From Trametes villosa (Eukaryota; Basidiomycota; Agaricomycetes; Polyporales; Polyporaceae), in NCBI GenBank assembly GCA_002964805.2, contig PUDQ02000003.1:4278001-4342000 (forward strand): a stretch of 64,000 nt of DNA. The letters run 5' to 3'. The translations under genes were made by a program, and so were the position numbers. Below the pieces are notes generated by a model. It had not been told where the DNA came from. It was given only the letters and a program-made list of their open reading frames with translations, and did not search any database. This document shows, in pieces, positions 12,822-26,770 of this stretch; positions within the stretch are counted from its first letter, which is position 1; each line of letters begins with the position of its first letter.

Positions 12822-15800
12822 ATGGTCTTACGTCCAATGAAGGCACTCGCAACGCTGCGTAAGGTACGCGTATCCGCTGCCCTTATCGCCTCTCCAATCC
12901 AATGCGCCCGATCAGTTCTGTTACGGAATCAATGCCGACGCACTCGACTTGCGAAGGTATTGTCTACCCTAACAATAGCTCCTGTATATGCATTCACGAG
13001 TTCCTCATCCCACGTAGGGTCGTTCATACCGTCAGTCTCGGAATGGTTACCGGCCTATCGACGGCGGACGTACAGGTACGCATTCAAAGAGAACTAAATA
13101 CTCGACGGTGACGGTAACCCGTTGCTACCCGCAGCACGAGCTCAGTATCGCGGCTGCGAATATGGCCACATATCACCCTGATTATTCCCTACTTGCTGGA
13201 CGCTTGGAGATCGCGCAACTACATCGATCTACGCAGAAACAATTCTCCGACTACGTCCTATGGCTAGCCCAAGGTACGACGCTCATCCGCTGCAGCAGTC
13301 TACCAAATAATCTAACCAGCCACCTCGTTAGTCGACCCGACCGTATTTTCCGACGAATTTGTGGAAGTCGTGGGTCACCACGGATTCGCATTTGACCATG
13401 CACTGCGGCACGCTCGGGACTACAACCTACGATAGTAAGTACGCATCCCGTCAGCCACGCCGTCCGCTTATCGCAGAATAGTCTATCTGTCAAGTCGCTG
13501 GAGACGACGTACCTGCTGCGCTACAACGGAACAACCGTCGAGCGTCCTCAGTGGCTGTACATGCGAGTCGCAGTCGCGCTCCACGGACGAGACGTGGCCA
13601 GAGTGTTGGAGACCTATGATCTTCTGTCGCGCGGGTTCTACACCCACGCCACTCCCACCCTCGTCAACGCAGGCCGTCGTCGCCAATCCCTGTCATCATG
13701 CTTCATCATATCCGCCAACTGCTCCACCTCTACCACCACATACGAAGGTTTGCGCGACATCGCGAACATCTTCATGGCCGACGGCGGCGTCGGGCTTGAT
13801 CTGCACACCGTACCAGCGCAAAGGTCAGACCGGCTCTGGTCGCGCATTTTACGCCTAGCCTTGACGTTATGACTCTTCCAGGACCGACCGTCCGCAAGCA
13901 GGCGTCATTCCGTATCTACGCGTCGTCGACGCTACCGTCAGGCTCACCTCTCAGCACAAGGCCAGCCGGCCTTCGGCCCTCACCGCTACCATTCCTATCT
14001 GGCACTCCGACGTCCTCGACTTCATCGACCTCAAGAACAACCGTGGACAGGAGCACATGCGCGCTCGGGACATATTTACTGCGGTTCTCATTCCCGACCT
14101 ATTGTACGTCCAATTCGTTGTCCGGTCCCGCGTCTCGTGCTAACTACCGAGTAAGCATGCGACGTGTCAAGGAAGATGGACAGTGGTATCTGTTAGACCC
14201 CCGCGACGTACCAGAACTACTCGAGACCTACGGCGACGAGTTCGAAGCGGTGTACACGGAGCTCGAACGCACGCAACGCCCGTTAACTGTGGTGCGTGCG
14301 CGCGTCATCTGGGACAGAATCATCGCCGCGCAGATCGAAACCGGTGGACCTTTCATTCTCTACCTCGAGGCCATCAACAGTAGGTGCTTTCATATGTCTG
14401 TATATCTCCATCCGAGATTAACTGTACCGACTGTCACAGACAAGAGCAACCACAAGCACCGCGGCGTCGTGCAGTCGGCCAATCTCTGTACCGAGATCGT
14501 CCAATACGCAGCGCCCGGTGCACCCGCCGTTTGCACGCTCTCTTCTCTCATACTGCCGGCATTCGTGACTCCGGAACGAGACTTCGATTTCGCACACCTT
14601 CATCGCGTCACTCAAACCGTCGTCCGTAATACCGACCGCGTTCTCGACATCAACGACTATCCGAGCCCACAGGCCAAGCACTCTGCGGAAACGACGCGCG
14701 CGATCGGGGTCGGAGTTCAAGGCTTGGCAGACGTCTTCATGCGTATGCAAATCCCGTACGACTCCGACACAGCGACCACCTTGAACCGCGACATATTCGA
14801 GACCATCTACCACGCCGCACTCGACGCTAGCTGCGAGCTCGCGCGCCAGTATGGGCCGTACGCTACCTGGGAGGGCTCGCCGGCCTCTCATCTGCAGCTT
14901 CAGTTCGATCTCTGGGGTGTAGAACCGTCGGCCCGGTATGATTGGAGCGAGTTGAGGACCCGTATCCACACCTACGGGCTTCGGAACTCTATGCTCACCG
15001 CGCAAATGCCCACCTCGTCTACCTCGCAGGTGGCTGTAGTGACGGACAGTACGGAGCCGTGCGTTAGGTACGTTTTTCACGAATCTCACGCTACAGTTGT
15101 TGCGCACACGTCTCATGCCTCGCACAGCAACGTCTATACCCGGAGAACGTTATCTGGAGAGTTCCAGATACTCAACGGCTGGCTCATCCGTGACCTGATT
15201 GCTCACCGAATGTGGGGCGATGGCATGCGGGAGGAGATCCTCCGCGCAAACGGTAGGTTGCCGCCACTTTTCCGGTCGGTACGGCTGCTGAATCCGACTA
15301 GGTTCTATCCAGCACATTCCCGACATTCCATCCAACCTCAAAGCCGTGTACAAGACCGCTTGGGAAATTCCCCAGAAGCGTGTACTGGACATGGCCATCG
15401 CTCGAGGCCCGTACATATGTCAAAGCCAAAGCATGAGCGTCTACATGGCGGAACCTACCCCGTCGAAGCTGGTTCGTTGTTTATTATAGTCACTGAGGCA
15501 TCCAATCAAATACGCTACTCTAGAACTCTATGCACTTCTACGCCTGGCAGAACGGCCTCAAGACAGGCATGTACTACCTGCGAAGCCAGCCGCCCGTGTT
15601 CCCCGACCGCTTCGGATTGATGCCGCTGTCGCGTCCACCTGCACCGCCCATCATACTCGACGACGATTCGACGCAAGAGGATGCCGCCGACCAGGTTCTC
15701 CCGTCATCCAGCAACGGCAACCCCGACCGGGGTGCGTCAACGTCGGGGACGGCTTTACCGCACGCCGATCAACTGACCGAACTCCCGGGCGAGCCCAATC

Positions 15801-15826
15801 TAATCTGTCTGGGATGCTCGGCTTAG
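12822..15826 (+). CDS. Ribonucleotide reductase class I large subunit (R1), divergent accessory copy
   Basis: Reduces ribonucleoside diphosphates to deoxyribonucleotides with the R2 subunit. Twelve exons join in phase: 12822-12863, 12916-12956, 13018-13075, 13135-13273, 13332-13434, 13482-13823, 13882-14103, 14156-14379, 14440-15067, 15128-15278, 15313-15471, 15524-15826; 803 residues. Catalytic parts are intact: C201 in LSSCF, N405/C407/E409 in NLCTEI, C422 in AVCTL, the tyrosine pair Y720/Y721 in GMYYLR, the PTSSTSQ phosphate loop, and C-terminal C798-x2-C801. Regulatory parts are not: the ATP-cone has lost its first strands (the protein starts only about 14 residues before the FCYGINAD helix region), the effector-binding Asp after LSSCF is absent (NCSTST), and loops 1 and 2 are shortened or altered (VPAQRTDRPQ; HKASRPSA). 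The first exon is the least certain; a TATATA lies at 12801-12806. The R2 gene lies on the same strand beyond the Helitron. Confidence 0.88.
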
Positions 15827-24523: not shown

Positions 24524-25477
24524 CGTACACTAACCACAGCGCTCGCGTTAGCCCTGTACCTTCCAGAGAGCCCCACATACTAATACTCACAGCGCAGAGT
24601 ATCAAGAACAGGTAACAACTCGGTTATCGCAGTGTCTGCAACGGCAGCGTGATCCATGTCGGTGTCGGTGAATATCGAGTGAAGAATACGCAGATGATAG
24701 TAGCAAGCAGACAATCCTCAAAGGTGAGATGCTCCCTCGCTCTCCGTTCTAGCTCTTTATACCGACATTCGCTCCCGCCATATGTACCGCCGTTCGTGCA
24801 TGCCCGACATCTCGCGCGACAATGCGACACCGTTCGGCACGGCTTGTGACCGAGAAACGCGCGTCGACCTGGCCCGCACAGTGTCAGTCACCAACATCGC
24901 GAAAGACACCTAGGCACTCTACTCCGGTCGCCGCTCTGCTTCGTGACGCGACCCCGCTCGGCACAGGAGATGCTCACTCCCGACGGAGAGACGCGCGTCG
25001 GACTGGCCCACACCACGTCCGCTCGAAACGCTTGGACATTCCAAGCTTCAGGCACGCACACCTTAGTTTACGCACATACCTGACTCACCCCTTCTCATTT
25101 GCCAAGCCTCCTCGGAGCATAATCAGTAAGCTCGCCTCACCTGACACGCTCACCGGACCTCGGCGCATACCCTCCTCAGTCGTTAGCGCCGGCTGCCGTC
25201 GTACAGCTACGCCTGTCGTACTCTGATTCCATTACCCAGGTGAGTCAGCTACACATCACATGCTCCATGCAGTCCACAAAGCAGCTCGTCACCTTTCCCG
25301 CGCAGATGCCAGAGGCCGCGTACACCGATGGCACTCGTCGACCATGGCAAACGCACATTTATAGCAGCCCTACCTGCATATACGCAACTCATTCGCAGCG
25401 TCGACTAGGACGCCGGAACGCGCGACGACCTGAACGCGTAATAAGTCTCCGAATACCACCTCGTCAGCATCTGCAAA
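24524..25477. other. Spacer between Helitron gene and R2
   Basis: No supportable gene. Similar GC-rich segments recur (around 24840, 24960 and 25400, each with an acGCGCGwCGaCCTG-like core), suggesting diverged repeats. The expected 5' Helitron end and the R2 promoter should both lie in or near this stretch. Confidence 0.4.
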
Positions 25478-26770
25478 ATGAGTAGCGAGGCACACGGAAC
25501 AACCGACCCCATCTTACACCCCGACGAAGCGCGGTTCATACTGCACCCTGTCCGGTATCCTCAAGTGAGTTCCAATGTCGGCGACTCCCTCTTCTGAGCT
25601 TACAACATTCCGTCCACAGATCTGGGACGCTTACAAGAGCGCACAATCGGCGTTCTGGACAGCTGAAGAAATCGACCTCGCCACCGACGTCCAACATTGG
25701 ACAAACAAACTCACCGCTCAAGAGCGATCTCTGTTATCCCTGCTACTAGGGTTCTTTGCTAGCTCGGACGGCATTGTTAATGAGAACCTCGTGCAGCGGT
25801 TTTGCAGCGAAGTGCAAATACCCGAGGCCCGATGTTTCTACGGATTCCAGATCATGATGTACGCAACGGTGCTTCGTCCTTCGCGCATCCACTAACCTGT
25901 CGCGCTATCTACAGGGAAAACGTTCACGCAGAAACTTACTCCCTCCTCTTGCTGACTCTCGTACGCGATGCCGAGGAACAACGCCGTCTCTTCCACGCTA
26001 TATCTACCATCCCGACTGTGAAGGCTAAAGCCGACTGGTGCATGCGCTGGATCGAAGACAGCACACGCCCATTCGCTACGAGGCTCGTCGCGTTCGCGGC
26101 GGTGGAAGGGATCTTCTTTTCTTCGTCGTTCGCCGCCATTTTTTGGCTCAAGAGTCGCGGACTAATGCCCGGGCTGGGCTACTCGAACGAGCTGATATCA
26201 CGCGACGAAGGCCTGCATACCAGCTTCGCGTGTCTCCTCCACGAACATCTTGACGTCAAGGCCGACAAAGACACAATTCTCATGGTGATCAAGGAAGCGG
26301 TCGCACTCGAGACCGCGTTCTTCCGCGGTACTTCGGTCCTCTCCCACACATTCTCTGCGCGTTCTCACCCTATAAATCTACTGTAGATGCACTCCCTACT
26401 CGACTTCCAGGCATGAACGGCGACTTGATGGCGATCTACATCGCATATATCGCCGACCGGCTGCTCGTTCAGCTTGGATGCGAGCGCTTCTACCTGCACG
26501 AGAACCCGGTACGTCTCGCATACGCTATCGCAGCCATGGTCGACAGCGCTCACCTGATCCATACAGTTCCCCTTCATGCAATCCATAGGCATGGATGGGC
26601 GTACGAATTTCTTCGAGCGGCGCGTGTCTGAGTATCGCACCGCCAGCGTCAGCGATCACCTCCGCGGAACAGGAACCCGTCTATTGTAAGCACAACCGAG
26701 CTATGTTTATGATGTACAGACCGCTTACGCGCGGATCCTTACGCGCAGCACGATCGACGAGATGTTCTGA
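25478..26770 (+). CDS. Ribonucleotide reductase class I small subunit (R2)
   Basis: Supplies the tyrosyl radical to R1. Six exons join in phase: 25478-25564, 25620-25858, 25915-26327, 26387-26508, 26567-26685 and a 22-nt last exon 26749-26770; 333 residues. All six di-iron ligands (D79, E110, H113, E173, E207, H210) and the radical tyrosine Y117 are present, in the contexts SDGIVNEN, ENVHAETY, AVEGIFF and SRDEGLH. The last exon encodes TIDEMF, which completes an R1-binding C-terminal tail of the FTLDxxF type ending in Phe. The N-terminus is short, only 29 residues before the IWDAYK segment, so the usual regulatory extension is missing. Every splice site is canonical and no stop interrupts the frame, so the gene appears functional. 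It matches the R1 gene 10 kb upstream on the same strand. Confidence 0.92.

Follow-up and report, generated by a model that had tools for sequence, protein, structure and literature searches.

An autonomous-looking 33.9-kb Helitron of Trametes villosa that encodes both subunits of a ribonucleotide reductase, probably free of feedback control

Introduction

Can a transposon carry its own nucleotide supply? Transposons generally draw nucleotides from the host, whereas viruses and phages that encode a ribonucleotide reductase (RNR) of their own are well known. The question is raised by a locus of the wood-rot fungus Trametes villosa, in the 64,000-nucleotide stretch analysed here (C3:4278001-4342000, hereafter the window; the genome comprises 46.7 Mb in 140 contigs), where genes for both subunits of a class I RNR, the large subunit R1 and the small subunit R2, lie on either side of the Rep-Hel gene of a Helitron. 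Rep-Hel nicks the 5' end of a Helitron, peels off one strand and copies it up to the 3' end. A sequence-only reading of the window had singled out this linkage, for which it knew no reason in fungi, and the R1 as strongly divergent, and had proposed three explanations: a rolling-circle element with its own nucleotide supply, a virus-derived R1/R2 pair, or an accessory host locus that a Helitron later invaded.

Results

R1 and R2 lie inside a Helitron, between its own matched ends

The features on which the argument rests are the following (window coordinates; aa, amino acids).

12716..15826, plus strand: R1, class I ribonucleotide reductase large subunit (spliced model, 13 exons, 819 aa)
18344..24529, minus strand: Rep-Hel with DUF6570, Helitron_like_N and PIF1 (single open frame, 2061 codons stop to stop, up to 2061 aa)
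25478..26770, plus strand: R2, ribonucleotide reductase small subunit (6 exons, 333 aa, PF00268 with E=9e-49)
1..30489, minus strand (sense strand): in-window part of the Helitron, delimited by paired terminal motifs and homology limits
30466..30489, minus strand: 5' terminus of the Helitron, TCCTGGACACGTAGTGGTCAGGTC, from the homology limit between copies, a pattern search, and inverted-repeat and folding tests

All 12 introns of R1 are GT-AG, and its Pfam matches fall on two window frames, one with PF02867 (E=1.1e-95) and the other with PF00317 (E=7.3e-19). Exon 2 of R2 starts at 25620, after an intron ending in AG, and the protein terminates in FTIDEMF. Pfam matches, spliced models and the open frame of Rep-Hel thus bear out the layout first described, with R1 and R2 on one strand flanking a Rep-Hel on the other; the right limit originally given, 26770, was exact, and R1 starts ~106 bp upstream of the original left limit. 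Rep-Hel has the composition of a Helitron protein, a Rep (HUH, two Tyr) fused to a PIF1-type helicase, and the HUH, Y-x3-Y, Walker A and Walker B motifs are present in both of the large copies described below. No Pfam match to a Helentron-type endonuclease domain was found at E<=0.001 in the 2061-aa frame. Genome-wide, Rep-Hel sequences are marked by at least 49 matches to PF14214.

The Helitron copy in the window measures 33,854 bp (C3:4274636-4308489). It overruns the left edge of the window by ~3.4 kb, to window coordinate -3364, with its 3' terminus beyond that edge and its 5' terminus inside the window. A whole-genome family search found R1 exons at three loci, namely the window, C3:2944603-2946372 and contig C18, the last of which is presumably the host housekeeping gene; R2 exons were found in the window and at C3:2934603-2935496, and two divergently arranged genes on contig C110 also contain them. 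The second C3 locus belongs to another full-length copy (copy 2), which lies 1.3 Mb away on the same contig, is inverted and measures 41,302 bp end to end. Both large copies follow the same order throughout: their matching blocks start at base 1, finish at the last base and are 64-92% identical in DNA. Rep-Hel is located between R1 and R2 in both, in the same relative order and orientation. At the protein level, the two Rep-Hel are 75% identical over residues 82-2061, window residues 1-81 being unmatched in that alignment. R1 and R2 therefore recur together with the element, and the repetition of the whole arrangement elsewhere in the genome argues against chance.

The flanks of the two large copies are unrelated, and homology ends at the terminal motifs on both sides. 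At the right edge, it breaks off abruptly at ...GTCCAGGAA, which reads TCCTGGACACGTAGTGG... on the sense strand; this 5' motif has three genome matches at <=3 mismatches, the third on contig C10. A CTRR-type 3' end shared by the two large copies was sought and not found, and the real 3' end was identified through the C10 copy, which is identical over 30 bp to the left flank of the window copy. The 3' motif also has three genome-wide matches at <=3 mismatches, all exact, one per copy and in the correct orientation. Together, the motifs form three correct pairs, one per copy (33,854, 41,302 and 981 bp), and reversed-pattern controls gave no match in either search. The 981-bp C10 copy is an internal-deletion derivative, since it holds only the 5' end, gene D remnants (gene D is described below) and the 3' end, and no further element sequence was found in the 8.8 kb beyond it.

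Terminal identity between the large copies reaches 87% (87 bp) at one end and 92% (39 bp) at the other. The first 87 bp (window 30403-30489; C3:2931615-2931701), at 87% versus 64-76% in the long coding blocks, are possibly a binding region for Rep. Palindromes such as CACGTG and AACGTT occur within them.

An empty site was found for copy 2. Its joined flanks (400+280 bp) align with an element-free inverted-repeat insertion at 78% identity (535/686). This element-free insertion, probably a transposon, is 2.6 kb long, sits in gene C of copy 2 and has inverted repeats of ~900 bp; its other arm aligns with the same joined flanks at 75% over 672 positions. Copy 2 thus sits within another repeated insertion, and the empty site is paralogous. 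At the junction, 6 and 3 bases are left over in the two alignments, the terminal nucleotides being exact to ~3-6 nucleotides. Three copies with paired ends and one empty site show that the element has defined ends and inserts without a long target duplication. Considering that the paired ends are outside both genes, that a second full-length copy exists and that there is an empty site, R1 and R2 are inside the Helitron. The ends map ~6 kb and ~22 kb beyond Rep-Hel rather than just outside it, which is where the sequence-only reading would have placed them in the case of a chance insertion.

The class of the element was assessed from its termini. The base preceding the 5' TCC is T in 3/3 copies, and all three end in CATAC, followed by one variable base (C or G) and then TAT. 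Canonical Helitron1 ends (3' CTRR, A^T insertion) are absent in all three. In each copy, the first 11 bases pair at 9/11 positions with a stretch at the 3' end, a pairing reached in 0.2% of 20,000 trials with uniform random 11-mers not matched for guanine-cytosine content. All three copies agree in the predicted position of a 5' hairpin, but 43, 59 and 55 of 200 shuffled sequences fold no worse. Folding of the 3' end was equalled by 144 and 163 of 200 shuffles, and with flanking bases included the 3' fold differs between copies. Terminal hairpins therefore count for less as support for Helitron2. From Rep-Hel and the ends, the element is firmly a Helitron, and its imperfect asymmetric terminal inverted repeat suggests that it is likely a Helitron2.

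R1, R2 and Rep-Hel are under purifying selection

R1, R2 and Rep-Hel contain no stops in either copy. We estimated the ratio of nonsynonymous to synonymous substitution rates (dN/dS) between the two large copies for eight genes, taking R1, R2 and Rep-Hel together with a single exon from each of genes A, B, C and D and from the F-box-like gene. In six of the eight, dN/dS is 0.06 to 0.18 with silent sites near saturation (R1, 0.14; Rep-Hel, 0.06). For R2, the proportions of nonsynonymous (pN) and synonymous (pS) differences are 0.09 and 0.75, and because silent sites are saturated its dN/dS of 0.02 is nominal only; silent sites of gene B are also saturated. These comparisons show that R1, R2 and Rep-Hel are under purifying selection.

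R1 and R2 are probably of fungal origin and have relatives in other polypores

The divergence attributed to R1 is real: it is 41-48% identical to 115 of the 120 listed proteins, and 53-60% identical to five members of its own clade. The host R1 model, which does not include the first exon, has eight introns. Of these, 6/8 have the same position and phase in the window R1; the remaining 2/8 agree in phase but are displaced by 4-5 alignment columns, one of them matching copy 2 exactly. The element R2 likewise shares the intron of the host R2 on the plus strand. This host gene is one of two R2 genes arranged divergently, head to head, at C110:687976-691093, where the minus-strand gene is clearly the more divergent.

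In a tree of 34 rows, the element R1 falls within a clade of seven (support 100/100) on a long stem within fungi; long branches and odd composition in five clade rows call for caution. In the R2 tree (34 rows, three long rows flagged), the element R2 falls within a clade of 13 Polyporales-type accessory R2s (100/98), inside basidiomycetes. Both trees were built without viral rows. The R1s of both copies are sister to a Trametes cingulata protein from a 50,334-bp contig (100/99), and the element R2s group with Cubamyces lactineus (nearest, 92/79) and with the R2 of the same 50,334-bp T. cingulata contig (97/95). By their shared introns and their place in both trees, R1 and R2 come from a fungal nuclear genome in all likelihood, and would have been captured with their introns.

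R1 and R2 are found on contigs of equal size in T. cingulata (50,334 and 2,158,873 bp) and in Polyporus arcularius (40,234 bp), i.e. for three of the five clade R1s from other genomes, the evidence from contig size being indirect, and weak for the 2.16-Mb contig. This suggests that the R1/R2 linkage exists also in Trametes and Polyporus. For clade R1s on contigs of 18,966 and 291,685 bp, none of the 120 listed R2s is on an equal-sized contig; conversely, several accessory R2s have no R1 on an equal-sized contig among the matches listed. None of the listed Rep-Hel matches (120 of 188) is on a contig equal in size to a clade-R1 contig.

Catalytic residues are kept and allosteric residues are replaced

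We aligned 123 R1s, consisting of the seven clade members and 116 others (115 database matches and the host gene). Residue numbering is taken to be that of yeast R1, and we take D226, S227 and R256 to belong to the specificity site; for R2, ligands and the radical tyrosine are presumably numbered as in mouse. C218, N426, C428, E430, C443, Y741 and Y742 are invariant in the alignment, including 7/7 clade members, and a CxxC motif is found within the last 10 residues of 7/7 clade R1s and 114/116 others. The iron ligands and the radical tyrosine of R2 are present in the 7/7 clade R2s taken and in 116/116 others. The catalytic set of a class I RNR (Cys, Asn, Glu and Tyr residues and CxxC of R1; ligands and Tyr of R2) is thus complete. 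The R2s of the two copies end in R1-binding-type peptides (FTIDEMF and FTFDEAF), which are variable in clade R2s of other species.

The allosteric set, on the other hand, is not. D57, in the activity site, is Q or L in 7/7 clade R1s and D in 116/116 others. D226 and R256 are substituted in 7/7 clade R1s and conserved in 116/116 others; S227 is T in five of the seven. Loop 1 measures 17-19 aa in the clade versus 22 aa in 116/116 others. K243 was rejected as clade-specific evidence because it varies in other R1s too. In the available part of PMC3267527, D57N is reported to increase the deoxynucleoside triphosphate (dNTP) pools of both yeast and mammalian cells, and specificity regulation is described as seemingly universal except in a few herpesvirus enzymes. 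The replaced residues suggest that clade R1s are free of inhibition by deoxyadenosine triphosphate (dATP) and of effector control.

Further genes of the element, and its relatives

Besides Rep-Hel, R1 and R2, the window copy contains the following genes.

28664..29558, plus strand: gene D, with zinc-finger resemblance in its first part, below Pfam cut-offs
9850..11165, minus strand: gene C, several exons
8578..9211, plus strand: gene B, found again beside four RNR-less Helitrons
6506..7725, minus strand: gene A, ~4 exons
2118..3352, minus strand: F-box-like gene (E=0.001, below Pfam cut-off), in both copies
1..890, minus strand: right part of a gene called kinase-like here after its relative on contig C82; it extends to ~-500 and is common to copy 2 and the C82 Helitron

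Genes A-D have no Pfam match above cut-off, and gene C has no relative among solved structures (best E 0.11). The protein-kinase resemblance was seen in the C82 relative, at 17 bits far below the Pfam cut-off of 31.7; the copy 2 counterpart of the kinase-like gene is located in its last 6 kb. Copy 2 carries two insertions, at C3:2949410-2952048 (2.6 kb, in gene C) and C3:2959837-2962584 (2.7 kb, in the F-box gene), both with inverted repeats of ~700-900 bp, and a relative of the first is the target of copy 2. Its genes A and D show one stop each in six-frame matches, which may be intronic; the gene D stretch used for dN/dS contains none.

The six next relatives of Rep-Hel in the genome (contigs C82, C55, C18, C64, C49 and C8) are 49-55% identical to it. 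Genes A and B are each found near the relatives on C82, C55, C18 and C64, genes C and F-box-like near those on C82 and C55, and gene D near those on C18 and C64; among the matches listed, none of these genes is near the relatives on C49 and C8. The locus at C82:505001-538500 is a related large RNR-less Helitron with genes A, B and C, the F-box-like gene and the kinase-like fragment in a different order. There seems to be a family of giant multi-gene Helitrons in this genome. At C3:2273469-2286681, relatives of genes A, B, C and D and of the F-box-like gene occur together, with no PF14214 among the matches listed; this is either a family member without a recognisable Rep-Hel or one whose Rep-Hel has decayed.

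Beyond the element, window positions 44490-63998 hold a cluster of F-box-like genes, five frames of which are above the Pfam cut-off and one just below; three of these genes are direct or inverted duplicates with 66-77% DNA identity. A seventh F-box-like frame (31177-32748) is just below the cut-off.

Discussion

Taken together, these findings make it quite probable that the locus is an autonomous-looking 33.9-kb Helitron encoding a complete RNR and about seven further conserved genes, with a feedback-blind supply of dNTPs. The structural part of the proposal that a rolling-circle element brings its own nucleotides stands, on the ends, the second copy and the empty site; that the supply benefits the element is what we infer. 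R1 and R2 would assemble into an active enzyme insensitive to dATP inhibition and effector control. A circular intermediate of 34-41 kb would demand many dNTPs, which are scarce outside S phase; expression of the element would provide a feedback-free RNR and, through it, a larger dNTP pool, with which Rep-Hel could copy the circle when the cell is not in S phase or when host dNTPs are limiting.

Several observations weigh against this interpretation. The element is not prolific, its copy number being low (two full-length copies and one derivative), and both large copies are old, since silent sites are near saturation, and give no sign of recent movement. R1 or R2 matches are found at 0/6 of the nearest Rep-Hel relatives: the RNR is not general to the family and is limited to one Helitron subfamily in this genome. 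The loss of allosteric control is deduced from sequence, and one clade R1 retains RDGR in the ATP cone, another DGR. Finally, the first exons of the R1 and R2 models of copy 2 do not reach a start codon, and the terminal hairpins are no better than those of shuffles.

The main rival, which we consider unlikely, is that the element RNR serves the host or modifies the host enzyme in mixed complexes, the gain to the element being indirect, by way of a fitter host or one that withstands RNR poisons. That the nearest Rep-Hel relatives do without RNR (their mobility is a separate question) would fit this, as would the R1-binding-type peptide at the end of R2 in both copies. Two old copies have, however, retained both subunits side by side, and in other species the two are on equal-sized contigs, as would be expected of a self-contained enzyme.

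That the pair is viral, brought in by a giant virus or a herpes-like one, is very unlikely. Giant viruses often carry RNR. RNR in giant viruses is mentioned in the available part of PMC8204020, and a loss of specificity control is known, according to the accessible text of PMC3267527, from a few herpesviruses. Against such an origin stand the 6/8 R1 introns identical to those of the host and the shared R2 intron, and the grouping of R1 and R2 with fungi, in trees that lack viral rows. Moreover, in 18 R1 loci on putatively viral contigs, the best segments are only 27-43% identical to the element R1, apart from one partial match at 52%. With three partial ones omitted, 15/15 of these R1s retain D226, S227, R256 and a loop 1 of 22 aa, and 14/14 with data retain D57. 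The virus-derived pair envisaged in the sequence-only reading is accordingly disfavoured.

Two further readings are scarcely credible. If a Helitron had by chance invaded an accessory host R1/R2 locus between the genes, the window alone would look identical; two copies separated by 1.3 Mb, however, have their matched ends well beyond both genes, and the whole block recurs with unrelated flanks and, for copy 2, an empty site, which contradicts the invaded host locus suggested at the outset. Segmental duplication of a chromosomal region containing Rep-Hel, R1 and R2 would agree with the presence of both large copies on one contig, but homology ends at the terminal motifs on both sides, copy 2 is inside another repeated insertion, and a 981-bp derivative with the same two ends is on another contig.

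Returning to the Helitron with its own RNR, we put forward a broader view tentatively, as a possibility with perhaps slightly less in its favour than against it: a lineage of giant Helitrons of viral size in wood-rot fungi may have become nearly self-sufficient for replication, with its own initiator-helicase and an RNR lacking both allosteric brakes. Such an element could produce dNTPs as needed and replicate a circle of 34-41 kb without regard to the host cell cycle, in convergence with herpesviruses. An RNR that is complete, under selection and apparently feedback-blind would, in a transposon, blur the line between transposon and virus. A natural eukaryotic R1 family without the allosteric residues would also be useful for probing how specificity regulation works, and for asking whether dNTP supply limits rolling-circle transposition.

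No description of a Helitron with a ribonucleotide reductase was found in the titles and abstract starts searched, a scope outside which preprints and most subscription journals fall. 'Ribonucleotide' is absent from the available text of PMC6431247 and 'reductase' from that of PMC4289320, and the co-occurrence of the terms in the accessible part of PMC8204020 is unrelated.

How does the element compare with known systems? One close system is Helitron2/FoHeli of Fusarium oxysporum, which, in the portion of PMC5148889 available, shares asymmetric terminal inverted repeats, a non-canonical 3' end and a Rep-Hel without endonuclease; FoHeli1 and FoHeli2 also start with TC after a T. FoHeli elements are, however, ~5-11 kb long with no RNR mentioned in that portion, whereas the element described here is 33.9-41.3 kb and has about nine genes besides Rep-Hel, and its inverted repeat is imperfect (9/11) with hairpins that are not significant. 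HELPO1 of Pleurotus ostreatus shows that basidiomycete Helitrons can carry between one and four additional genes, of which one has a patchy distribution across species, but it differs by its A^T insertion, CTRR ends and size of up to ~15 kb, and its extra genes have virus-like domains or domains lacking known function (PMC4289320, available text). The gene-carrying Helitrons of maize likewise enclose host sequence and reach a large size, up to 39 kb; unlike the genes here, theirs are fragments, and capture of a full-length host gene is exceptionally rare (PMC6431247, in the part accessible). Starships are giant cargo elements of fungi too, but they use a tyrosine recombinase rather than Rep-Hel and are reported from Pezizomycotina. 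Another parallel is the class I RNR encoded by viruses, especially herpesviruses, in which a replicon has its own RNR and specificity control has been lost (PMC3267527, available part). Here, by contrast, the enzyme is borne by a transposon, its genes have fungal introns, and, as judged from sequence, residues of both allosteric sites have been lost.

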